Shown here in pieces: positions 802 through 59,629 of a stretch of 64,000 nucleotides of DNA. The number at the start of each line of letters is the position of its first letter. The stretch's first letter is position 1. The position numbers and the translations under genes were made by a program. Source of the stretch: Verrucomicrobiota bacterium. GTDB taxonomy: Bacteria > Verrucomicrobiota > Verrucomicrobiia > Chthoniobacterales > JAFAMB01. Below the pieces are notes generated by a model. That model had not been told where the DNA came from, made no database searches, and saw only the letters and a list, made by a program, of their open reading frames with translations. The stretch covers positions 1-64,000 of the forward strand of contig JAFAZK010000030.1 of NCBI GenBank assembly GCA_019239825.1. The letters run 5' to 3'.

Positions 802-854
802 GTGGCGTCACGCAGCGACGCATGCTTGGAGAAGGGAATCAAGTGCAATCGCGT

Positions 855-1179
855 GAGGGGGAAAGGGCGAATGGGGCGAATGGAGGGGAGCCGCTTTGGA
901 TCGTGCCTAAGGATCTCCTGCTATTCTTTCCAGGGCAGGAAGGCCGAATAGGGAGGTAAACAAGCGGCTCCCGGAAGCTACCGCACGCGATGTTTTGCCC
1001 ACCGTGTCGTTCAGAAATCTTCATCCGCTTAAGGCGCCGTTGACGTAACGCGCGTTGAGACATCCGCGGGAGCCGCTTGTTTAACAAAATTTGCGATCTT
1101 CCACCCGCCGAGACAAATACCACGGGGTTTTTAGGCACAAAAGCGGCTCCCCTCCATTCGCCCTTTCGCCCCATTCGCC
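855..1179. repeat. Palindromic interspersed element, family 1 copy 1 (long imperfect hairpin)
   Basis: Outer arms gggcgaatggaggggagccgcttt / aaagcggctcccctccattcgccc; inner arms gtaaacaagcggctcccg / cgggagccgcttgtttaac; core shared with 8128-8390. Confidence 0.9.
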
Positions 1180-1189
1180 GTCTCGCGCA

Positions 1190-6141: not shown

Positions 6142-6861
6142 ATGAACCCCCTAGAACAACGCATCGGATATAAGTTCCGAAACTCGCTGCTTTTGGCCGA
6201 AGCGCTGACTCATCCCAGCCTCGGCCACGAAACCCAGCGACATCATTTTGATAACCAGAGGCTAGAGTTTCTCGGTGATGCAGTGCTGCAACTGATCTTC
6301 ACCGAGCACCTCTTTCGCCTATTTCCGCATTTCAGCGAGGGGCAACTGACCAAGTTGCGGTCACGGCTCGTATCGCGCGAAGGCCTCAAGGTCCACGCGA
6401 CGAGTATCGGCTTAGGCACCTACCTGATGATGGGACGCGGAGAAGAAGCCAGCGGCGGCCGGGAACGCGCGTCGATTTTGGCAGACGCGTTCGAGGCGCT
6501 CGTGGGCGCAATGTATCTGGATAGCAATCTCGAGGTCGTGCGTCGCTTCATACTCGACGAAGCCCACGAAGACATTCAACACCTGGCTTTACAACCATTG
6601 GAAGTGAATCCCAAGGGCCAGTTGCAAGAGATTCTGCAAGCAATCTCCGCCAAAAGCCCGGTCTATGAGATTGTTTCCCAGACCGGACCCGAACATCAAA
6701 AGCTGTTTATCGCTAAAGTGATTTGGGACAACGCCGAGCTTGGTGCGGGCGAGGGTTCAAGTAAGAAGCAAGCTGAAACTGCTGCCGCTTTGGCCGCTCT
6801 TCGATCCCGGCTATGGGAAACAGACACTCCTACCCCAGAAACGGAATCGGCCGGTTCGTAG
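6142..6861 (+). CDS. rnc: Ribonuclease III
   Basis: NQRLEFLGDAVLQL motif, C-terminal dsRBD (GQLQEILQ...GEGSSKKQAETAAALAAL). Confidence 0.97.
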   Translation: MNPLEQRIGYKFRNSLLLAEALTHPSLGHETQRHHFDNQRLEFLGDAVLQLIFTEHLFRLFPHFSEGQLTKLRSRLVSREGLKVHATSIGLGTYLMMGRGEEASGGRERASILADAFEALVGAMYLDSNLEVVRRFILDEAHEDIQHLALQPLEVNPKGQLQEILQAISAKSPVYEIVSQTGPEHQKLFIAKVIWDNAELGAGEGSSKKQAETAAALAALRSRLWETDTPTPETESAGS

Positions 6862-7945
6862 AGCGGAGATAAACCAGCGCAACACCAAGCACGAAGAACA
6901 CCGCTGCCGGAGTCCATGCGGCCACGAGAGGCGAAACCCGTGAGCCCGCACCTAAAGCGGCAAAAATCTGCCCAGCCCCGAATAGTCCCAGAAAGAGAAA
7001 CAAGCCAGCCGCCACGCCTCCGAGCGAGCCGCGCCTAGAAAAAACCACACAAAGCGGACTGGCCATAAGCACAACCACTAACACATTGACCGGCACGGCA
7101 AAACGATCCCAAAGCTGAGTCCGGTATTCAGCCAGCGTGCTATTGGGGAAATCCGAATTAACCTTCAAGTAATGTTGAAGCTCGGGTACGGTCATCATTC
7201 GACCGTTGAGCGCTGAGCTGCCTAACTGCCAAATCGTTTCCGACCAATCGGTTTCTTCCTTTTTCTCGAAGAAGTCTTCATCCGTGACATTTCCATCGGC
7301 ATCTACGTATGACACCTTACCATCATACAAGATCCAGTTGCGCCCGCTGTGAACCGCCGATTTGGCGTACGCGATCCATTGAATCACCTCGTTCGCGTCC
7401 TGCTGGGTAATCTCCACGCCTTTAACCTCGCGCGTCTTGGTGTTCAGCAGTTGGACAAACCAGATGCGATGCTGTCTCCGATTAACGTAGACGTGTCCAT
7501 CCAAATACGTGACCTTGGAATGCCCCTTGGACACCTCATCCATCCGGTTGTTCATGACGTAATACCCTGTCGGCGCCAACTCGTAATTCAGATATCCACA
7601 GACACCAGTCAGGACCAAACCAAAGACGATCAAAGGTAGTAACACCCTAGGCACGCTTCTCCCGGCCCCCAACATCGCCACAATCTCGTTACGCCGTGAC
7701 ATCCTGGTCAGCACGTAGAGCAAACCGAGCAAAACGGCGAGCGGCATCCAGAGGACCAGCATGTAGGGAACTTGCGCGAGGTAATACAGCGTGATGACCC
7801 GCGCTGAGAGGTGCAATTCTAGAAACCGGGGACCCTCGACGCCGAGCTGGTAGACCAGCCAAATGCCAAGAATCCCGAAGATCGAGTAGAAAAAGAACAA
7901 TAAAAAGTTCTTGAGCAGATACCGATCTAAGATGCCGAAAAACAC
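6830..7945 (-). CDS. LptF/LptG-family (YjgP/YjgQ) LPS export permease
   Basis: MFFGILDRYLLKNFLLFFFYSIFG...PLAVLLGLLYVLTRMSRRNEIVAMLGAG; convergent overlap with rnc. Confidence 0.88.
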   Translation of the reverse strand: MFFGILDRYLLKNFLLFFFYSIFGILGIWLVYQLGVEGPRFLELHLSARVITLYYLAQVPYMLVLWMPLAVLLGLLYVLTRMSRRNEIVAMLGAGRSVPRVLLPLIVFGLVLTGVCGYLNYELAPTGYYVMNNRMDEVSKGHSKVTYLDGHVYVNRRQHRIWFVQLLNTKTREVKGVEITQQDANEVIQWIAYAKSAVHSGRNWILYDGKVSYVDADGNVTDEDFFEKKEETDWSETIWQLGSSALNGRMMTVPELQHYLKVNSDFPNSTLAEYRTQLWDRFAVPVNVLVVVLMASPLCVVFSRRGSLGGVAAGLFLFLGLFGAGQIFAALGAGSRVSPLVAAWTPAAVFFVLGVALVYLRSTNRPIPFLG

Positions 7946-8044: not shown

Positions 8045-8473
8045 GAGGAGATCAAAAGGAAGGAGCGAGGAGCCAGAATCCAGGAGTCAGGAGGCGTTGG
8101 GGTAGTTTGAGGTTCGCCTGGAGGGCAGGCCGCTTTGGACCGTGCCTTGGGATCTCCCGCTATTCTTTCTGGGGCGAGGAAGGCCGAGCAAGGTGTTAAA
8201 CAGGCGGCTCCCGGAAACGACCGCACGCCATGTTTTTCCCAGCGTACCGTTCAGAAATCTTTATCCGCTTGAGACGTCGTTAACCTAGTACGCGTTGAAA
8301 CGTTCGCGGGAGCCCTTGTTTAAGGCAATTTCCGGTCTTCCACGCGCCGAGACAAATATCACGGATTTTTGGGCACGGTCCAAAGCGGCCTGCCCTCCAG
8401 GCGAACCTCAAACTACCCCAGCGCCTCCTGACTCCTCGATTCTGGCTCCTGGCCCCTTGCCCTTGATCTCCTC
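8045..8473. repeat. Palindromic interspersed element, family 1 copy 2, with about 100-bp outer arms
   Basis: Arms 8045-8146 and 8372-8473 are reverse complements with few mismatches (for example ggagtcaggaggcgytggggtagtttgaggttcgcctggagggcaggccgctttggaccgtgcc); core homologous to 893-1150. Confidence 0.93.
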
Positions 8474-8518: not shown

Positions 8519-10516
8519 GTGATCGCTTTACGGGAAGATTTTGACAATGAATTTGAGGGCTCGATCCGGGAAACGTTCGGCCGCACCGGCGTTTTGTCTC
8601 AGCAACCGAAGTTCGAATATCGGCCTGAGCAACAGCAGATGGCCGAGTCGATCGCTCGAGCGCTCCGAGAGAACCAGCATCTCGTGGTTGAAGCCGGCAC
8701 CGGAGTCGGCAAATCATTGGCTTACCTGGTGCCCTCGATAACTTTCGGCCTCGAGAATCGCCGCAAAGTGATCGTTTCTACGCATACGATCAACCTCCAA
8801 GAACAACTACTCCATAAAGATATCCCCGCGGTTCGTAAATTGATCGACCGGCCTTTCGAGGCGACCCTGATGAAAGGCCGGCAAAATTACCTTTGTCCCA
8901 ATCGTCTGCAGCGCGCCCTGCAAAATAGCGCGGACTTATTCACTTCCAGCCAGCAAGAAGAGCTATTGCGAATTAAAGATTGGGCGCGGACCACCAAGGA
9001 AGGCACCTTAAGCGAGCTGGATGCCGAACCGGACCCGGAACTATGGCTCCAAATCTGCAGTGAACCTCATTTATGCACGCCGAAAACCTGTAGCGGAGAT
9101 GGGAAATGTTTTTATCAGGAAGCTCGGAAGAAACTGCTCACAGCCGATATTATCGTCGTTAATCACACCTTATTCTTTCTTTACTTAGAGGCGGTAGGCG
9201 ACCCGGTGAACCGCGGAAATGGATATCTCTTTGCAAATGACTTCGCCATTTTCGACGAGGCCCATACGCTGGAAGCAGTCGCGGCCAAACAAGTCGGCCT
9301 GGGGGTATCACAGTACGGCCTCCGCCAGATTCTTTACCGGCTTTATAACCCGAAAACTCGTAAAGGATTGTTTACAGTTTTGCGAGATGGCGACGCGGTT
9401 CGCGAGACAACAGATACCGTCGAACAGGTAGATCGATTTTTTCAAGGAGTCGACGCCCGTTGTAATTTTGCTAAAGGGCGCGAATTCCGAGTACGTAATC
9501 CGGACATTGTCCCTGACACGATCGGGAATGCTTTAGCTCGAGTTCAGAACGCAGTCGTTTCTTCGGTTCGAGCGACGGAAGACGAGATCCTTAAGAGCGA
9601 GCTGCAAGATATTGGGCGAAAGCTCCGGGATATTCGATTTGCCGTCACCGATTTTCTCGAGCAAAAGCCGGAGGAGCATGTCTATTGGGTGGAACGCACC
9701 GGTAAGACCGGGCAGTTTCTGTCGCTTAACGCAGCGCCAGTCGATATCTCCGCAATCTTGAATCGGCTACTGTTCGCCGAAGATCGCCTTTGCGTGATGA
9801 CCAGCGCTACCTTGTCGGTCGGCCGGCCTGACCTGGCTTATTTTCGGAACCGGATCGGCGCGTTTGAGGTTCAGGCCGTGCAAATCGGGAGTCCCTTCGA
9901 TTACGAGCGGCAAATGCGAATCTACGCGGTCAAAAAGATGCCCGAGCCCGGCGACAAAGGTTACGAAGACGCGCTTGAACGTTGGATCCGGCATTTTTTG
10001 GAGCTGTCTCAAGGACGCGCCTTTGTGCTCTTCACCAGTTATCGAACCATGTCCTCGGTAGCCGAGCGCATGGAAAGTGAGTTGCAAAGACGTTACACTT
10101 TTTTTGTGCAAGGCCAGGGGCTTTCCCGATCACGCATGTTGGAGGAATTTAAGCAGTGCGGTAACGGGGTGCTCTTCGGGACCGATAGCTTTTGGACCGG
10201 TGTCGATGTCCCGGGTGAGGCATTGTCCAATGTTACTATTACCCGGCTCCCATTCGCAGTTCCTGATCATCCTTTGATCGAAGCGAAATTGGAACATATC
10301 CAGGCGAACGGCGGCGACCCGTTCTCCGAATATTCGTTACCTGAAGCGATCTTGAAGCTGCGACAAGGAGTTGGCCGCTTGATCCGAGCGAATTCCGACA
10401 AAGGGATCGTGGTGATTTTGGATAACCGGATTTTGACGAGAGCGTACGGTCGCTCTTTTCTGCAAGCGCTTCCGAAGTGCCCGTTAGAAGTTGTGCAAGA
10501 TGACGGATCCGGTTGA
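8519..10516 (+). CDS. dinG: DinG-like ATP-dependent DNA helicase (XPD/FeS type)
   Basis: EAGTGVGKSLAYLVP Walker A, DEAH box, cysteines CPNRL...CSEPHLCTPKTCSGDGKC, VGRLIR. Confidence 0.92.
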   Translation: MIALREDFDNEFEGSIRETFGRTGVLSQQPKFEYRPEQQQMAESIARALRENQHLVVEAGTGVGKSLAYLVPSITFGLENRRKVIVSTHTINLQEQLLHKDIPAVRKLIDRPFEATLMKGRQNYLCPNRLQRALQNSADLFTSSQQEELLRIKDWARTTKEGTLSELDAEPDPELWLQICSEPHLCTPKTCSGDGKCFYQEARKKLLTADIIVVNHTLFFLYLEAVGDPVNRGNGYLFANDFAIFDEAHTLEAVAAKQVGLGVSQYGLRQILYRLYNPKTRKGLFTVLRDGDAVRETTDTVEQVDRFFQGVDARCNFAKGREFRVRNPDIVPDTIGNALARVQNAVVSSVRATEDEILKSELQDIGRKLRDIRFAVTDFLEQKPEEHVYWVERTGKTGQFLSLNAAPVDISAILNRLLFAEDRLCVMTSATLSVGRPDLAYFRNRIGAFEVQAVQIGSPFDYERQMRIYAVKKMPEPGDKGYEDALERWIRHFLELSQGRAFVLFTSYRTMSSVAERMESELQRRYTFFVQGQGLSRSRMLEEFKQCGNGVLFGTDSFWTGVDVPGEALSNVTITRLPFAVPDHPLIEAKLEHIQANGGDPFSEYSLPEAILKLRQGVGRLIRANSDKGIVVILDNRILTRAYGRSFLQALPKCPLEVVQDDGSG

Positions 10517-37584: not shown

Positions 37585-38898
37585 ATGAAATTCCCTCGTA
37601 ACACCAGAGCTGCTCTGGCGGGCGCGTTTACCCTATCCCTAGCCTGCGCAGCACCCCTAAAAGCCAACGAAGTCGATGTCACCAGCGGCAAGGTTAAAGT
37701 GGGCGTCTTACATTCGCTGTCGGGCACGATGGCGATCAGCGAAACCTCCTTGCGCGATACGTTGTTGTTCGCCTTCGATGAAATCAACAAAAACGGCGGG
37801 GTTCTCGGAAAACAGATTGAACCCGTCGTGGTAGATGGCGCTTCCAACTGGCCATTGTTCGCGGAAAAAGCCAAACAGCTGCTGCAGCAGGATAAGGTCG
37901 CCGTAGTTTTCGGCTGTTGGACCTCCGTTAGCCGTAAGTCGGTACTTCCTGTCTTCGAACAAGATGACGGTATGTTGTTTTATCCGGTCCAGTACGAAGG
38001 CGAAGAACTGTCGAAAAACATCTTCTACACTGCGGAAGCCGTGAACCAGCAAGCGACGCCCGCCGTCGACTATCTACTGGCTCAGGGTAAGAAGAAGTTT
38101 TACCTCGTCGGCAGCGATTACGTTTATCCGCAAACCACCAATCTCATCCTCTTCAAATATCTCCAGACCAAAGGCGTTCCGGTCGAGAATATCGGAGGCG
38201 GCCTGCGCAAAGATAGCTCAGGAAAGGTTATTTCGGCTGGCAAATACGTCCCGTTCGGCCATACGGATTTTCAGCAGATCGTATCGGAAATCAAACAGTT
38301 CGCGGCAGGTGGCGATGCCTGCGTGATCAACACAATCAACGGTGACTCTAACGTGCCGTTCTTCAAAGAAATCGCGTCCGCCGGGCTGAGTCCGGCCGAT
38401 TGTCCTATCGTCTCCTTCAGTTTAGCCGAAGACGAGCTGCGCAGTTTGCCGACCAAGGACCTGGTGGGTGAGCTAGGATGCTGGACTTATTTCATGTCGC
38501 TGAAAACGCCGGAAAACAAAGATTTCCTGGCGCGCTGGAACGCCTGGTTAAAGGGCGAGAGCTATGCAGGTGTAGTGAAAGAAAAACGCGCGGTGGACAG
38601 CCCGATGGTGCTTTCCTACGACGGCGTTTATCTATGGAAAAAGGCGGTGGAAAAAGCCGGTTCCTTCGATGTGGATAAGGTACGCGGGGTATTGGAAAGC
38701 GATGCCATCAGTTTTGATGGTCCCGGCGGCAAGATCACGATGCAGAGCAACCACCACGCAACGAAAAACGTTTACATGGGGGAAACCACTGCAAACGGGC
38801 AATTCAAGATTTTGAGTACCTTTCCACAGGTTAAGGCCGAACCTTTCCTGTTAAAGGGTCTTGACGAAGAGCTCGAGAAAAAGACTGCACAAAAATAG
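37585..38898 (+). CDS. urtA: Urea ABC transporter substrate-binding protein
   Basis: [64 protein letters not shown]. Confidence 0.96.
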
Positions 38899-39003
38899 CG
38901 GCGAAGCCCCGTAATCTATCCCGCGCCAATCCGGTCGATTCTGGATTGGCGCGGACCCTGTGACCTTGAACTGATCGCTGCGTGAACCAATAAAGAAGAA
39001 AAA

Positions 39004-39225
39004 TCTCACGCAAAGACGCAAAGGCGCAAAGGTTAAAACCATTCAGGTAAGAGCGTTCCAAAAATTTTCGAAGCGGTAGTTCGGAGGTCGGTGATTGCAG
39101 GATTGCAGATAAAACGAACCCCCAATAAAGGCACTCGTTAAGAATGGTTACCTCCCTGATGTCCTCGTGCTTTGCGCGACATTTGCATGCGTCTTAACCT
39201 TTGCGCCTTTGCGTCTTTGCGTGAG
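39004..39225. repeat. Inverted repeat of ACGCAAAGACGCAAAGGCGCAAAG type
   Basis: ctcacgcaaagacgcaaaggcgcaaaggttaaaac (39004) / gtcttaacctttgcgcctttgcgtctttgcgtgag (39191). Confidence 0.95.
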
Positions 39226-39233
39226 ATTTTGGT

Positions 39234-41447: not shown

Positions 41448-43148
41448 ATGAAGATTCCCCGCCAAGCATATGCAGAAATGTTCGGCCCAACCGTTGGAGA
41501 CCGGATCAGGTTAGCCGATACGGACCTCGTGATTGAGATCGAGAAGGACTTCACCATTTATGGGGAAGAGGTCAAGTTCGGTGGCGGCAAGGTAATCCGG
41601 GATGGGATGGGTCAATCGCAGCGCTCGGCAAAAGATGCGGCTGACACCGTTATTACCAATGCCGTTATCGTAGATCACACCGGGATCGTTAAAGCAGATA
41701 TCGGAATAAAAGATGGTCGGATCGCTGGAATCGGGAAGGCCGGTAACCCGGATATTCAGCCCGGCGTAACGATTATGATCGGGCCTGGCACTGAAATCGT
41801 TGCCGGCGAACACATGATTGTGACTGCCGGCGGGATTGATACCCATATTCATTTCATTTGTCCTCAACAGATTGATGAAGCGATTACTGCCGGGTTAACC
41901 ACCATGATCGGCGGCGGAACGGGACCGGCAACCGGCACCTACGCCACGACTTGTACGCCGGGCCCATGGCATATCGAACGGATGTTACAGGCCGCCGAAG
42001 GTTACCCCATCAATCTCGGTTTCCTGGGCAAAGGAAACGCCAGCCAACCGGAGCCTTTGCGCGAGCAGATCGCGGCTGGAGCAGTTGGTCTAAAATTGCA
42101 CGAAGACTGGGGAACCACACCCGCTGCCATCGATACTTGCCTATCAGTAGCAGACGAGACTGACACTCAGGTAGCTATTCACACCGACACCTTAAATGAG
42201 TCCGGCTTTGTCGAGGCGACTATTGCTGCGTTTAAAGGCAGGACCATCCATTCATTTCACACCGAAGGTGCCGGCGGCGGGCATGCTCCCGACATTATCA
42301 AAGTCTGCGGCGAAGCGAACGTGCTGCCTTCGTCAACGAATCCGACCCGGCCGTTTACGGTCAACACATTGGATGAACACCTGGATATGTTGATGGTCTG
42401 CCATCATCTGGATCCGGCCATCGCAGAAGATCTGGCGTTCGCCGAGTCGCGCATCCGTCGCGAAACCATCGCCGCAGAAGATATCCTGCATGACTTGGGT
42501 GCGATCTCGATGATGTCCAGCGACTCACAAGCCATGGGGCGAATCGGAGAAGTCATTATCCGCACCTGGCAAACCGCTCATAAAATGAAGGTCCAGCGCG
42601 GCGCTTTGCCCGGCGATACAGCGCGTCACGACAATTTTCGGGTAAAACGTTATGTGGCTAAGTACACGATCAATCCCGCTATTACTCACGGGATCGCTCA
42701 TGAGGTTGGCTCTGTGGAAGTAGGAAAATGGGCAGACCTGGTTCTGTGGTCACCCGCCTTTTTTGGAGTCAAACCCGCTCTAATCTTAAAAGGAGGGATG
42801 ATCGCGGTGGCGCAGATGGGCGATCCAAACGCGTCGATCCCAACTCCACAACCCGTCCATTATCGGGAAATGTTCGCGACTCGAGGGATGGCTCTGGCGA
42901 AGACCTGTCTCACGTTTGTATCTGGCAAAGCACATGAATCCGGAATCGGCGAACGTTACGAACTCAGGCGCCAATTAGTCCCGGTTCACAGTATACGGAA
43001 TCTCAAGAAGCAAGATCTCATACATAACTCGTGGCAACCCAAGATCACGGTGGACCCTGAAACTTACGAAGTAACGGCGGATGGCGAACTGCTTACTTGC
43101 GAGCCAGCTAAGGTATTGCCGATGGCTCAACGCTATTTCCTTTTCTGA
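41448..43148 (+). CDS. ureC: Urease subunit alpha
   Basis: [34 protein letters not shown] ... GIDTHIHFI ... GLKLHEDWG ... MVCHHL. Confidence 0.98.
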
Positions 43149-45081: not shown

Positions 45082-45096
45082 TCGGCGTTTGCGAAT

Positions 45097-45339
45097 GCCA
45101 CGAAGTGGCGAAACAGAACAGCCCAGGGCTTCAGCCCTGGGTTTGGTGATGGTGTGGGTGCGCCCTGAAAGGGCGTCCGAGCGAGAATCGCCTTTGCCAA
45201 TTGGTTCTGGCAATCCAGAATTTAAAGGTCGACCTAGCGCGTCCGGCCCGAATCACTCGGTCGCCCTTTCAGGGCGATCTTTTTTGGGGAGCTAACCCAG
45301 GGCTGAAGCCATGGGCCGTTCTGTGTAGCCACTTCGCGT
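45097..45339. repeat. Nested inverted-repeat element (CCCAGGGCTGAAGCCCTGGG type)
   Basis: Outer arms 45097-45144 / 45293-45339; inner cgccctgaaagggcgtccgag / ctcggtcgccctttcagggcg. Confidence 0.93.
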
Positions 45340-45414
45340 CATTCGCCCATTCGCCGTGTCGCGCCCCCTCGTTGCTTGCGCCAACCGCAGTTTGCTTGTT
45401 TGGTGGTGGTTCTT

Positions 45415-46797
45415 ATGCCCGGGTCACGGAAGCTCTTCCAAACAGAATTGGGAGCTACACTCTCGTTGGCGATCCCAATGATGGTCGGGCAACTCGGCCA
45501 GATGTTGATGGGTATCACAGACACTCTGGTCCTCGGACGGGTGGGTGTGGTCCCGCTGGCCGCTATTGGTTTTTCTAATACGCTGCTGGGAACGTTATAC
45601 GTAGGCGGTATCGGTATTTTGGCAGCGGTCGGAATCTTCGCGGCTCAAGCACATGGAGCAAAGCTGGAAAGTGCTAAAATCGAAGTGTTTCGATCGGCTT
45701 TCTGGCTGTCACTCTTCGTTGGAACCGCGACGGCCACCATCGTGATGGCTCTCATACCCGTGCTGAGCATTTTCGATGAACCGATTCCAGTCGAAATCGC
45801 CGCGCGACCCTATCTGGCGATTGTCGGTCTATCGTTGATTCCCGCACTTGGATCAATGAGCGTTAAGACCTACTGCGAGGCACTGGGAAAACCGGTGATC
45901 CCAACAGTGATCCTCTACGCGGGAGTGATCTTAAATGTCGCCTTGAATTTGCCATTGGTATTCGGCTGGTTTGGACTGCCGGCGCTCGGACTGGTTGGAT
46001 CGGCAATCGCCACGCTCTGCGCCCGCATTTTCGTGCTGATCGGTATTACCGCATATGCGCTGTCGTTGACTCGACTACCGTGGCAGGCGTTAACGATTTC
46101 AGGTGTGAGCTGGGAGAAGATGGGCAGCTTATTGAAAGTTGGCGTACCCATCTGTTGCCAATACGTCGCGGAAGCCGGCGCTTTCAATTTCAGTGCCATC
46201 ATGATGGGATGGATGGGGACCATTCCCTTGGCCGCGCATCAGATCGTGGTGACCTGCGCCGCGACGACATTCATGTTTCCCCTAGGTATCTCTATTGCCG
46301 CCGGCGTCCGTCTTGGTCATGCAGTCGGCTCACAAGCGTATTCGGCCTTACGCAGGATTTCTCTCGGGGCGATCATGGTTTCGGTACTGATCCAACTGGG
46401 GTTTGCCGCGATTTATTTAACACTCGGCCACCAGGTTGCTCTCTTGTTCACGAGTCAGACAGAGGTAGTGGAACTCGCCGGCCGTTTGATGATCATCACC
46501 GGCATCTTCCAAATCGCCGATGGTATACAAGTGACGTCAGCCGGCTGCTTAAGAGGTTTGGCTGATATCCGGCTCCCGATGCTCATCGGCATCTTCTGTT
46601 ATTGGGCGGCAGCGATTCCCACAGGATTTATTTTCGCATTCAAATTGCACACTGGACCAACCGGGATCTGGGTCGGGCTTGCTCTTGGCTTGTTCGTAGC
46701 GGCGCTCCTACTAACCTGGCGTCTCCAAGCGATGACCAGTCCCGGCCGGCAAGGTACGTTTGTGTTTGGGAAAACGGAGAACCTCAAGGCGTCGTAG
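45415..46797 (+). CDS. MATE family efflux transporter
   Basis: ELGATLSLAIPMMVGQLGQMLMGITDTLVLGRVGVVPLAAIGFSNTLLGT. Confidence 0.95.
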   Translation: MPGSRKLFQTELGATLSLAIPMMVGQLGQMLMGITDTLVLGRVGVVPLAAIGFSNTLLGTLYVGGIGILAAVGIFAAQAHGAKLESAKIEVFRSAFWLSLFVGTATATIVMALIPVLSIFDEPIPVEIAARPYLAIVGLSLIPALGSMSVKTYCEALGKPVIPTVILYAGVILNVALNLPLVFGWFGLPALGLVGSAIATLCARIFVLIGITAYALSLTRLPWQALTISGVSWEKMGSLLKVGVPICCQYVAEAGAFNFSAIMMGWMGTIPLAAHQIVVTCAATTFMFPLGISIAAGVRLGHAVGSQAYSALRRISLGAIMVSVLIQLGFAAIYLTLGHQVALLFTSQTEVVELAGRLMIITGIFQIADGIQVTSAGCLRGLADIRLPMLIGIFCYWAAAIPTGFIFAFKLHTGPTGIWVGLALGLFVAALLLTWRLQAMTSPGRQGTFVFGKTENLKAS

Positions 46798-46820
46798 GCG
46801 AAACGACGAACGGGTGTGTC

Positions 46821-46884
46821 GGTAGGGCGAAAAACTCGGTGATCCGACAAGCCGCATCACACGCGCCGAGTTTTTCGCCCTTCC
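46821..46884. repeat. Short inverted repeat ggtagggcgaaaaactcggt / gccgagtttttcgcccttcc
   Basis: Direct inspection; 19-bp gcgccgagtttttcgccct also at 19817-19835. Confidence 0.8.
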
Positions 46885-46931
46885 ACCGCGCCGTCTCGCC
46901 CATTCGCCGTTTGCTGCTAAGGTTGGTCAGC

Positions 46932-47450
46932 ATGCGAAAGCTTTCCGCTCTCATCTTGGGTGCTGTTTTGGCCTTACTCTCGGCTGCGGCGCTCAAAGCC
47001 CAGACGTTGAAATTCGGTGAGGAGAGCTTCTCTCTTTCCTCTAAAGATGCCGACGCTCAAAAAATAGAAAACGATTTCGTCCTGCCCGGGCAAACGGAAA
47101 CGAACTGGACGCAAAAAGTGGTCATAAGTCGGTTTCCGAGCGCGAATGACGTTAACGTTTTCGCGAATAATCTTTGTCTTACGATCAATAATCAGAGACC
47201 CGGAACCGGCGCCTCGGTAACGAAAGTTGGAGCAGACTGTTATGTCGCTTACTCGACTGCGTCGGCACTGGGAGGACAGCTCAATATGGTCCACCGTATT
47301 CTAGTTGATCCGCAAGGCGGGGTCAGGATGTACGTATTTGTGCAACGCCCTTCAGCCTCGAAATCGGCCAGCGATCAAGCAACGATTAGCCGCGATGATA
47401 GTATCCATGCGCTAGCCAGGCTCTCACCTTTGATTCGTCTTGCCCAATAA
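46932..47450 (+). CDS. Secreted hypothetical protein
   Basis: Signal peptide MRKLSALILGAVLALLSAAALKAQ. Confidence 0.65.
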   Translation: MRKLSALILGAVLALLSAAALKAQTLKFGEESFSLSSKDADAQKIENDFVLPGQTETNWTQKVVISRFPSANDVNVFANNLCLTINNQRPGTGASVTKVGADCYVAYSTASALGGQLNMVHRILVDPQGGVRMYVFVQRPSASKSASDQATISRDDSIHALARLSPLIRLAQ

Positions 47451-48740: not shown

Positions 48741-48767
48741 GGAGCTAGGAGCTAGAATCTAAGAGAC

Positions 48768-49055
48768 TTTGGTAGGGCGAGGCTCCCGAATGGCCCAAGG
48801 CTTTTAGCGAAGCTGCTGGCGTTGATGAATCCGAAATCGCGCTAGGCCAAAAAGGCGTGCCGAGCCGCGGGTCTGCCGTGTCGCAATGATCTTGGTTTCT
48901 TAAAAGTGATGCTGCATTGCCAATCACCGCGCCTCACCATGTACACGATATGCCGCGGCTCGGCGAGCGCATTGGCGTAGCAAAATTCCGGGTTTTAAGC
49001 TTGCCGGCGGCTTCGTCAAAATTAAAGCGCCATTCGGGAGCCTCGCCCTACCAAG
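48768..49055. repeat. MITE-like TIR element, family 2 copy B
   Basis: tttggtagggcgaggctcccgaatgg / ccattcgggagcctcgccctaccaag (25/26); inner gccgagccgcgg / ccgcggctcggc. Confidence 0.95.
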
Positions 49056-49056
49056 G

Positions 49057-50724
49057 TTGACGGCATCACGCCCCTCTCCATGTTGCCGCATTACCAGTCC
49101 ACGCCCTTCTTTTCATAAGCTCGACTTTGCCGCCCTGCTTCTGGTGCTAGCAGCGGTCCTCTGGGGGATCAAACAACGCGGCGGTTTGCCGGCTGTCCCG
49201 CTCCTCACACCGGATTCTTGGGGTTACCTGCATCCGGCGCTCTCTTGGCTAGGCGGCGCTGGGTTTCAGCAAACCGACGGACGGGCTTGGTTTTATCCGG
49301 CTATTGTCGCCCTAATATTGAAGGGCGGCGGCGATTTCTCGTGGATTGTTCGGGTCCAACAAATCCTGGGTTTGGCCAGCGCGCCGCTTCTCTGGTTCGG
49401 TCTACGGATCTGGTTATCGCTCTTCCCAAAGAGAACGCCGCTATGCCACGGCGTCGCTGTTTTCCTGGGAGCACTAACCGCCGCGATTTATTTATTGAAC
49501 ACCACACAGGTCCGCTTCGAAATGACTATCCAACCGGAAGGTGCGTTGGCGTTCTTCGTTCTGACCTATCTCTTTCTTGCGCTTGCTTACATCAGGATGC
49601 GTTGGGTTTCCCACAAGGACTGGCCCGCGATCGTTTTCGGCGCCGCCACCGTGCTCAGTTCCTATTGCGTTCTGCTTTTGAAACCAAGTTGGGGATTCGC
49701 GCTGGTCCCTAGTTTCCTTTTGCTTGTCGCGGGGATTTTTGGCGCTGGCTCGCGGTTGTTGCGCTGGATACCCGCCTTCGCCGCGGTCGTGATGACGGGT
49801 GCTCTCTTCACTTGTCCACATCTGCTCGGCTTTCGGCCGGACGCGGGTTCACGGACCTTCCTGCCTTTCACCCTGGTCTCGATACACGCCGCCCAGATTC
49901 TCCAAAACGCTGAAAAGCAACATTTGATCACTGAGGCCGATACGCCTTCGCCTGACCAGGAAGACCGGTTCTATCAAGAATTGAAGCAAGCCTGGATCGA
50001 GGCTCGGAAAGTCCCGCTTGGCTGTCCGACGCTCGGTTTTGCTCCTGACTACATCATGTATACGAAGGATTTTTTCAGAGGATTCGCCGCCGAGCAAAAG
50101 CTGACCGACTCCGAGTTGATCAGCCTTTGTTACACAACCTATTTCAAGACTTGGCTGGGTTCACCTGGAGCGATGCTGGCCAAGCTCGGCAAAGAAATGG
50201 GCGTCTTTCTATCTGCACCGAGCCGCGACTTCGCGGCGCATTCCGTGAGCAGAAAGCGAGCGTTGGATATTTCCGCCCGCTTCAGTCCTGCGCCCCAGGA
50301 GTTGCTGACGGCGGCTGAAGCAAAAGACTATCTACGCAATCAACCCATCTATCTGGCCTACCTCGCCAACCTGGCGAAAGTGTATCAAGAAGGTTGGAAG
50401 ATCGATTGTGTTAATTGGTTGCGTTACGTCGCGATTGTCCTGGCCAAACTCGCCTCGATCATCCAGGTCGCATTTTTTGTCTCTCTCATTCCGATTTTCT
50501 TCACCGGAAGGCTCTCTGATCTCCGTTTGCCGGCACTAGCGGCAATCATGGTCAGCACGGCAGTCTATGGAAACATGTTGACCGTTGGGGTTGTCCACAC
50601 CCTCGACCTGGACCGATATCGCACCGGCTATATGCCGGCGCTCCTCCTCACTCTGGTGATGATGACGACGGTTCTCTTCGCAGCCGCGGAGCGATGGAGG
50701 CGCATCTCGCGAGACCTAACATAG
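49057..50724 (+). CDS. Multi-pass membrane protein, glycosyltransferase-like hypothetical
   Basis: 555-aa ORF, many TM segments, extracytoplasmic TPDSWGYLHPAL motif region; TTG start abuts the repeat. Confidence 0.65.
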   Translation: MTASRPSPCCRITSPRPSFHKLDFAALLLVLAAVLWGIKQRGGLPAVPLLTPDSWGYLHPALSWLGGAGFQQTDGRAWFYPAIVALILKGGGDFSWIVRVQQILGLASAPLLWFGLRIWLSLFPKRTPLCHGVAVFLGALTAAIYLLNTTQVRFEMTIQPEGALAFFVLTYLFLALAYIRMRWVSHKDWPAIVFGAATVLSSYCVLLLKPSWGFALVPSFLLLVAGIFGAGSRLLRWIPAFAAVVMTGALFTCPHLLGFRPDAGSRTFLPFTLVSIHAAQILQNAEKQHLITEADTPSPDQEDRFYQELKQAWIEARKVPLGCPTLGFAPDYIMYTKDFFRGFAAEQKLTDSELISLCYTTYFKTWLGSPGAMLAKLGKEMGVFLSAPSRDFAAHSVSRKRALDISARFSPAPQELLTAAEAKDYLRNQPIYLAYLANLAKVYQEGWKIDCVNWLRYVAIVLAKLASIIQVAFFVSLIPIFFTGRLSDLRLPALAAIMVSTAVYGNMLTVGVVHTLDLDRYRTGYMPALLLTLVMMTTVLFAAAERWRRISRDLT

Positions 50725-54248: not shown

Positions 54249-55601
54249 TCATCGGTTCAGCAACCTGGCAAATAAACGGAGCCGAGCGTAGATAACGGCA
54301 TCGCGCACGGCGAGAGACAACGGTTCGCCCTTCTTTTCTACGAGCGGATTGGCCAGAACAAAAGTTACCGCAACCAGCACGGTCAACATCAAAAAGTAAA
54401 GACTGTACCGGTTCACATGAAATGGCCCCAACTGAAACTGGGCGTGCCCGACGGAATCCAGAAAAATCCCCCAGCAAATCGGCGCTAACCCTAAGCTCAC
54501 AGAGGTAAACACGGTAAATAGAGCAAAGAAATGGTTTCTACCCATCAGAGGCATCGTGTCCATGGCAATCCGCGTGTTAGCAATCCCAAACAAGCCACCA
54601 GCGACGCCTAGGATCAGGTAAATGAGCACTACCATCACCGCCGTCGTGTTTAACAGGCCGCTCGAGATCAGGAGCCAACAGATCACGGTCCAAAAATAAC
54701 AAACCAAGGCTATCCGCAGCATCGGCTTCGTCCCGGTCCGGTCCATGAGACCAGCCACCAACGGCACGGTAATCGCCGCTCCGACGAAAGCGAACATATT
54801 GCAGCCCAGAATCATACCGTCGCTGAACCCGCCGGCGTTTTGCAAAAAGCCGACGATGAACGCCCCTAAGCCGCCGATCACCCAGTTGTAGACGACCGTA
54901 AAAATCAGCAGTTTCGTGAAAGGAGGATATTTCAGCATCGCGCCCCAGGGTACTGGTTGGCTCGAGGTCCTGACCTGATCACCAACTTCGACGTCGGGAA
55001 CCAAGCGAATAAAAAACAAGCTCAACGTCGCCGCGCAGGCGCTAAGAAAAAACAGAAAGGAGAAATGCCCCGGTTTCCCACTGCTCCATAACACGACAGA
55101 CGAAAGCGCCAGCGCCAACAGTCCACCTATTTGGACATAAGTTTGATCTTTTCGAAGGAAATGCCCTCTTCGTTCCTCCGGAATTAAGGAGGTGAGCCAG
55201 GGCAACCACGCCCCAGTCGATATTCCGCGTAAGACATTGAAGATGAACAGGCCCATTAACATCAGGCTAATTTTCGTAGAGTTGTCGAACGCGGTTACCA
55301 ATGGCAACAGGGCAAAACTAAAGACGGTCAGTGTTCGCGAAAACCAGCCCAGCAGAACGAACTGCTTATAACCGATCTTCGGGATGAAGTAAGCCGTAGG
55401 TAATTGTAGGACGGTCAACAAAGGCGCCAAGGCGGCCACTATGCCGATCGTCGTCGAACTCGCCCCGAGCGACTTGGCGTACAAGACCATCGGGGTGCCT
55501 AACGTGATCTGAAAATTCAGCTGGTTATACAGGCTGAATTGATGCGCGTAGGCAGAGTCCCTTTTGACCTCTGAGGAAACCGTTAGTGCACCTTCTCGCA
55601 T
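54249..55601 (-). CDS. MFS transporter
   Basis: 12-TM-like ORF FQITLGTPMVLYAKSLGASSTTIGIVAALAPLLTVLQ. Confidence 0.88.
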   Translation of the reverse strand: MREGALTVSSEVKRDSAYAHQFSLYNQLNFQITLGTPMVLYAKSLGASSTTIGIVAALAPLLTVLQLPTAYFIPKIGYKQFVLLGWFSRTLTVFSFALLPLVTAFDNSTKISLMLMGLFIFNVLRGISTGAWLPWLTSLIPEERRGHFLRKDQTYVQIGGLLALALSSVVLWSSGKPGHFSFLFFLSACAATLSLFFIRLVPDVEVGDQVRTSSQPVPWGAMLKYPPFTKLLIFTVVYNWVIGGLGAFIVGFLQNAGGFSDGMILGCNMFAFVGAAITVPLVAGLMDRTGTKPMLRIALVCYFWTVICWLLISSGLLNTTAVMVVLIYLILGVAGGLFGIANTRIAMDTMPLMGRNHFFALFTVFTSVSLGLAPICWGIFLDSVGHAQFQLGPFHVNRYSLYFLMLTVLVAVTFVLANPLVEKKGEPLSLAVRDAVIYARLRLFARLLNR

Positions 55602-55860
55602 ATAATGATGACATCGCCGCGAGTCAGTTGGCTGTTTTTCAAGGCGCGAGCGACGAGCATATCTAAATCCGATACGTAAGGAGCGAGCGACGCCGAAAAA
55701 CAGCCAACTGGCCGCGGCCCGGAGGGTTGCGATGAAAATGGGCCGGCGGCCGCGTTGCTCGTCGGTTGCGTATCGATCCAGATATGCGCCCTCCTCGCGC
55801 CTTGCCGGCGGCCCATTTTGATCGCAACGATGTCACCACTATATGCGAGACGGTGCACTA
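55584..55860. repeat. Cruciform-like nested inverted repeat: outer stem closing two hairpins
   Basis: Outer 55584-55616 / 55828-55860 (30/33); hairpin 1 55625-55640 / 55695-55710 (16/16); hairpin 2 55726-55750 / 55804-55828 (about 23/25). Confidence 0.95.
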
Positions 55861-59348: not shown

Positions 59349-59564
59349 TTTGGTGGGGCGAGGCTCCCAAACGACCTTGAGGTAAGGCCGGAGCACCCGA
59401 TGCCATCTTGCCCAGTGACGTCCATAGGCCTAAACACGCGCCGAGCCGCGGCAGAGCGCTAAGTCACGGCTCGGCGCGTTTTCAAGCGTAGCAGTGTCTT
59501 ATCAACAGGATCATCGGTCACTCCGGTTCAATCATAGGGCCGTTCGGGAGCTCGCCCCACCAAA
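59349..59564. repeat. MITE-like TIR element, family 2 copy C
   Basis: tttggtggggcgaggctcccaaacg / cgttcgggagctcgccccaccaaa; inner aaacacgcgccgagccgcgg / cacggctcggcgcgttt. Confidence 0.92.
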
Positions 59565-59629
59565 GACCACTCGCCTCCTCTCCCCTTCCCCCTTTCGCCT
59601 CATTCGCCCCTTAGCTATGCTACTACCAT

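Follow-up and report, generated by a model that had tools for sequence, protein, structure and literature searches.

Nested palindromic repeats with apparent exchange of their cores in a genus of Verrucomicrobiota

Inserts lodged within palindromes have been described before: REPs serve as targets of IS elements (PMC1525189), IS1111 inserts in the QMITE2 palindrome (PMC10969869) and, in the human genome, different inserts occupy one centre of the Xq27.1 palindrome (PMC11947168). Bacterial MITEs (PMC10969869) are short elements with terminal inverted repeats (TIRs) and hundreds of intergenic copies that are gained and lost between species, the REP/REPIN–RAYT systems (PMC3116915, PMC3733652) comprise paired palindromic repeats in intergenic DNA, and template switching at quasipalindromes predicts both arm homogenization and spacer inversion (PMC8604942, PMC8794818). 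Here, we describe family A, a high-copy, hairpin-forming palindromic repeat of about 285 bp with the TIR CTGGAGGGGAGCCGCTTTGGATCGTGCC from a soil genus of Verrucomicrobiota, two copies of which (copies 1 and 2) lie in the 64 000-nucleotide stretch of contig JAFAZK010000030.1 that was analysed (the window).

Family A resembles MITEs in its short length, its TIRs, its hundreds of intergenic copies and, apparently, its gain and loss between species, and like them has no conserved gene that we could find, but it differs in that neither a cognate transposase nor a target duplication was found and in that its arms beyond the TIR consist of other repeats. As with the IS elements in REPs and IS1111 in QMITE2, a mobile element would sit within a pre-existing repeated palindrome; here, however, the insert is itself a long palindrome without an IS gene, and one outer palindrome can be occupied by several families in turn. 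The Xq27.1 locus likewise combines one palindrome centre with many unrelated inserts, but these are kilobase-sized disease alleles and the analogy is one of mechanism only. The precedents show that parts of the family A pattern were already known, and the statement in an earlier note on this DNA that no described family behaves in this way was too strong. Compared with REP/REPIN–RAYT, the arms of family A are much longer and no RAYT gene is close; compared with quasipalindrome template switching, family A does show inversions, but its stem changes are almost all one-sided. Cyanobacterial small dispersed repeats, the subject of work by Elhai in 2008, are said to occur inside one another and inside tandem repeats of heptamers. 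They reportedly share with family A the nesting of structured repeats within short-period repeats, but are said to measure 21–27 nt, compared with about 285 nt for family A, in which the short-period repeats form inverted arms.

The 28-nt TIR is conserved at both ends across copies. An 18-nt TIR pattern gave 388 matches at ≤2 mismatches in this genome (200 forward and 188 reverse) and none for the reversed control, and when the core was used as a query against the entire assembly, as the earlier note had proposed, dozens of places were located; the copy numbers given here derive from the pattern matches and from about 129 copies in the loci examined. Among the 57 genomes searched (56 relatives and the window's own), family A is confined to its own genus, where it is clear in the sister species G002 and G003 (about 20 places in each, from a limited scoring of candidates) and weak in G001; the 53 genomes from other genera yielded none. 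When GTDB genomes were scanned for exact TIR matches, these occurred in three Verrucomicrobiota MAG series, JAFAHI01 (G002) and JAFAIO01 (G003), both identified by 100% identical loci, and JAFAVN01, the copies of which retain the TIR and the inner stem (CAGGCGGCTCCCGGGAAT) and little else. Three further isolated exact matches were not accompanied by a visible element. Rfam gave no match above the gathering score at copy 1 or copy 2. At one locus (L194; G000:C86:400–1400), the right half of family A is tandemly repeated with a unit of about 190 bp and reverse TIRs at 500, 688 and 878.

A mobilizing enzyme was sought in two ways. The loci of the three Y1_Tnp (RAYT) genes contain no TIR within four mismatches. 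Two long TIR pairs, inspected for an autonomous partner in this incomplete MAG, both bracket ordinary genes (alcohol dehydrogenase-like and BlaI/BlaR1-like, named by eye), and no autonomous element was found between them.

Table 1. Features of the two family A copies and of the genes next to copy 2 (window coordinates).
Feature	Position	Strand	Remarks
Copy 1, whole palindrome	850–1187	.	
Copy 1, left outer layer	850–879	+	GGGCGAATGG type
Copy 1, left TIR	880–907	+	
Copy 1, right TIR	1130–1157	-	
Copy 1, right outer layer	1158–1187	-	TTCGCCCTTTCGCCCCATTCGCC
LptF/LptG-type permease gene	6830–7945	-	Pfam; named by domain
Copy 2, whole nested palindrome	8045–8473	.	102-nt arms, 225-nt interior
Copy 2, outermost left flank	8045–8068	+	Weakly symmetric
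Copy 2, left outer layer	8069–8093	+	GGAGCCAGAATCCAGGAGTCAGGAG; short-period repeat type, also at the same site in G003
Copy 2, left private arm zone	8094–8117	+	22-mer confined to both arms of copy 2
Copy 2, left family A TIR	8118–8146	+	CTGGAGGGCAGGCCGCTTTGGACCGTGCC
Copy 2, conserved inner stem, left half	8196–8213	+	TTAAACAGGCGGCTCCCG
Copy 2, conserved inner stem, right half	8307–8323	-	CGGGAGCCCTTGTTTAA
Copy 2, right family A TIR	8372–8400	-	
Copy 2, right private arm zone	8401–8424	-	
Copy 2, right outer layer	8425–8449	-	CTCCTGACTCCTCGATTCTGGCTCC
DinG-like helicase gene	8519–10516	+	Pfam; named by domain

Both copies are strongly symmetric and layered (Table 1). Copy 2, which is bracketed by the divergent permease and helicase genes, has arms (8045–8146 and 8372–8473) that are 93% complementary; six of their seven mismatches fall within 8056–8081 and only one lies in the inner 64 nt, in agreement with the internal symmetry originally claimed. 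Its predicted single-strand folding energy is −167.6 kcal/mol (z = −17.4). Copy 1 adjoins a MutY-like gene and has 48-nt arms with nine mismatches and a folding z of −8.1. The earlier note had drawn a common core between 855–1179 and 8045–8473 with unlike arms. The core (about 80–83% identity) and the unlikeness of the arms both stand, but the boundary has to be moved outwards: GGAGGG(G/C)AG at 882–890 and 8120–8128 is a shared terminal repeat, and the differing arms start just outside it.

The arms were compared within and between copies by scoring the left flank against the right beyond the TIR (symmetric at a score of ≥30), the null being left arms paired with the right arms of other copies. 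In the window's own genome 12 of 38 copies have symmetric outer arms, compared with 2% of mixed pairs, and for the 115 copies with usable flanks in all genomes the proportions are 39% and 4%, respectively. The within-copy excess is thus real and general, as the earlier note had expected, yet about half of the copies have no symmetry beyond the TIR. Where present, the symmetry is arranged in blocks: the TIR, then a subfamily extension, then layers of short-period repeats (GGAGCCAGAATCC, GGCGAATGG, ACGCAAAGACGCAAAGG and others), with unmatched spacers in between (for example, bins of 1.00/0.55/0.80/0.95 at L123). Repeat types such as GGAGCCAGAATCC, GGCGAATGGG, CAAGGAGTT and GAGGACGACGAGG recur on both sides in inverted order. 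The extension AGGCGCTGGGCGATCGCACATCACATGAACG is common to many G002 copies, so that the outer arm is partly a subfamily end. An age order of the layers, read from an inside-out gradient of arm identity, was rejected, the pattern being a mosaic with no clean trend.

Positional orthologs in the sister species were located by flank queries. Some sites carry family A in both species (for example L008, L009, L014, L017, L024 and L026), and others have a different palindromic repeat in its place. Family A is absent in 34 orthologous comparisons, where it is mostly replaced by other sequence. In a strict comparison, which called for flanks that align across species and are inverted repeats in both around differing interiors, seven of the 34, at six sites (L123, L079, L044, L006 with two orthologs, L003 and L061), showed this arrangement, compared with 0.6% of shuffled site pairings; the aligned flanks of the remaining orthologs without family A are not palindromic. 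Assembly from modules, one of the possibilities raised earlier, is supported by these sites, at which sister species have unrelated cores inside one and the same outer palindrome, and by symmetry blocks that correspond to repeat families. The clearest swapped core in the window is the mutY site of copy 1, where G002 and G003 retain GGCGAATGG-type outer arms around a CCGGTAGGGCGAAAAACTCGG palindrome, a family also present at window 46797–46908. At this site in G003 (L139), a GGCGATACG outer layer has expanded, on one of its two sides, as a tandem array of period 9.

A check for empty sites and target duplications was also run: L010 and L027 are empty, but neither is a clean family A empty site, none of which was found, and no target duplication was recognizable there or at other sites. 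Hairpins occur at 20 of 28 ortholog sites without family A, compared with seven of 34 intergenic regions of the window. This excess, which would at first sight favour targeted replacement strongly, was set aside as evidence, as most orthologs of hairpin-free control sites also have hairpins, in a similar share to 20/28. Turnover is therefore high everywhere, and the site-level replacement frequencies do not prove targeting.

The best explanation, to which we assign a probability of about 0.66, is that of nested palindromic repeats with rapid insertion, exchange and inversion of their cores. Family A would be a non-autonomous, MITE-like long palindromic repeat nested mid-way in other palindromic repeats. 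Each copy is built concentrically: the TIR encloses a core with the conserved inner stem, some copies add an extension particular to their subfamily, and outermost lie inverted layers of short-period repeats, one or several, which also surround unrelated cores; the outer arms would represent older layers or subfamily ends. Owing to this layering, the outer arms vary between copies while each copy is symmetric. Symmetry would be inherited at the birth of a layer or element and is then lost one side at a time. A core may enter, or be exchanged at, the centre of an older hairpin; this could be the work of a trans-acting transposase that recognizes a structured target, or of break repair at the hairpin tip. 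Several points count against this explanation: no more than six sites show the strict arrangement, no clean family A empty site, target duplication or autonomous partner was found, replacement at a site need not imply targeting, and the private arm zone of copy 2 was not found at its site (dinG) in G002 or G003.

A different account, which we consider unlikely, holds that the arms are actively homogenized by template switching or arm-to-arm conversion, so that the two arms of one copy change in step while different copies diverge. Stem changes between positional orthologs comprise 83 one-sided, 11 other double and one concerted change (counts into which some trios entered more than once), and old one-sided mismatches persist in both species; the 83:1 ratio led us to reject ongoing arm conversion as a general rule. 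A process that keeps arms matched, suggested in the earlier note beside module-wise assembly in the form of palindrome extension, hairpin-templated repair or gene conversion, is thus not supported as an explanation for the family at large. The blockwise rather than continuous symmetry also speaks against it. Homogenization draws its support from copy 2, the private arms of which are near-perfect and contain a 22-mer (GGGTAGTTTGAGGTTCGCCTGG) with no other occurrence at ≤3 mismatches in the three genomes searched. Copy 2 is, moreover, inverted relative to its orthologs, and published work describes homogenized arms together with an inverted spacer as the trace that template switching leaves (PMC8604942, PMC8794818). 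Against this, the core of copy 2 belongs to another subfamily than its positional counterparts, so that flipping an orthologous spacer would not by itself account for the inversion: identity is 67–69% to the own-site elements in G002 and G003, in opposite orientation, compared with 86% to L002 and 81% to L003, its nearest relatives. These identities favour a different copy over a flipped ortholog as the reading of the core and, in line with the best explanation, copy 2 may have arrived recently and be related to L002, the copy at G000:C180:66049. A whole element has been inverted between species in the case of L021 and its ortholog in L048 (G002), which are 95% identical with the outer arm included, and this too speaks for the best explanation. 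Homogenization would also suit L012 (G000:C8, 1–370), in which a 48-bp segment within the right TIR has an inverted copy at the left (41/41 match); this arm match lies outside a decayed TIR and is absent from the G002 ortholog L102, and its left part is at a contig end. Of everything described here, the 24-bp private arm zone of copy 2 is explained least well. Either the assemblies, which are incomplete, lack its parent copy, or a single round of fold-back copying made the arms match. A single template switch is conceivable for copy 2, given that its private arms are near-perfect and occur nowhere else; such an event would be an exception.

It is likewise improbable that the outer arms are simply the long TIRs of diverging subfamilies, with fast-evolving ends kept matched within each copy because a transposase needs matching ends. 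Such TIRs would account for the extension AGGCGCTGGGCGATCGCACATCACATGAACGCGCCA, which is common to many G002 copies and occurs in some elsewhere, and they have a parallel in a second palindromic family, family B (window 55584–55860, 277 bp, TAGTGCACC...GGTGCACTA). The cores of family B are up to 91–95% identical between copies, whereas its terminal 25–30 bp are of several types that are matched at both ends of a copy. It has a clean empty site in G002 with an apparent TA target duplication, by which it may be IS630/mariner-like. However, in other species the layers that enclose family A are present at the same sites with unrelated cores inside, and those layers are therefore not family A ends; the copy 2 arm, in addition, has no sibling copy. 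Chance or an assembly artefact is hardly credible and is refuted as a general explanation: all of the genomes are MAGs and some palindromes, such as L012, lie at contig ends, but the folding z-scores of −17 and −8, the 388 TIR matches compared with none in the control and the recovery of the same sites in independent MAGs all argue against it.

The window contains further hairpins. A large nested hairpin at 45091–45346 contains a match to Acido-Lenti-1 RNA, and the corresponding site in G002 is occupied by another palindrome, one of GGCGAAAAACTCGGCGCGC type. Other long inverted repeats, from at least three other families, lie at 48766–49057, 59349–59564, 46797–46908 and 39000–39230, and the sites 59396–59629, 46797–46973 and 38898–39233 have different or altered hairpins in the sister species. 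A strong Rfam match to 5_ureB_sRNA on the minus strand at 41595–41876 falls inside a 566-amino-acid ORF on the opposite strand, and is probably due to resemblance to the coding sequence of a urease gene, not to an sRNA.

Returning to nested repeats with exchanged cores, we infer that palindrome centres are recurrent places at which hairpin cores arrive, leave and are exchanged. It is conceivable, although doubtful, that the palindrome centre is an exchange site proper, at which unrelated palindromic cassettes are swapped in and out while the outer palindrome stays stable, through breakage and repair of the hairpin tip or through a transposase that targets the structure, and at which fold-back copying can match the arms of new copies, a process suggested by the private arms of L012 and of copy 2. 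The sister species, in which the same intergenic palindrome holds different hairpin cores, form a natural series in which the sequences reveal what becomes of palindrome centres, be it insertion, exchange, inversion or arm repair. Nesting would explain symmetry within copies and difference between them without continuous gene conversion, and it cautions against treating the intergenic hairpins of such genomes, which are mosaics, as single elements.
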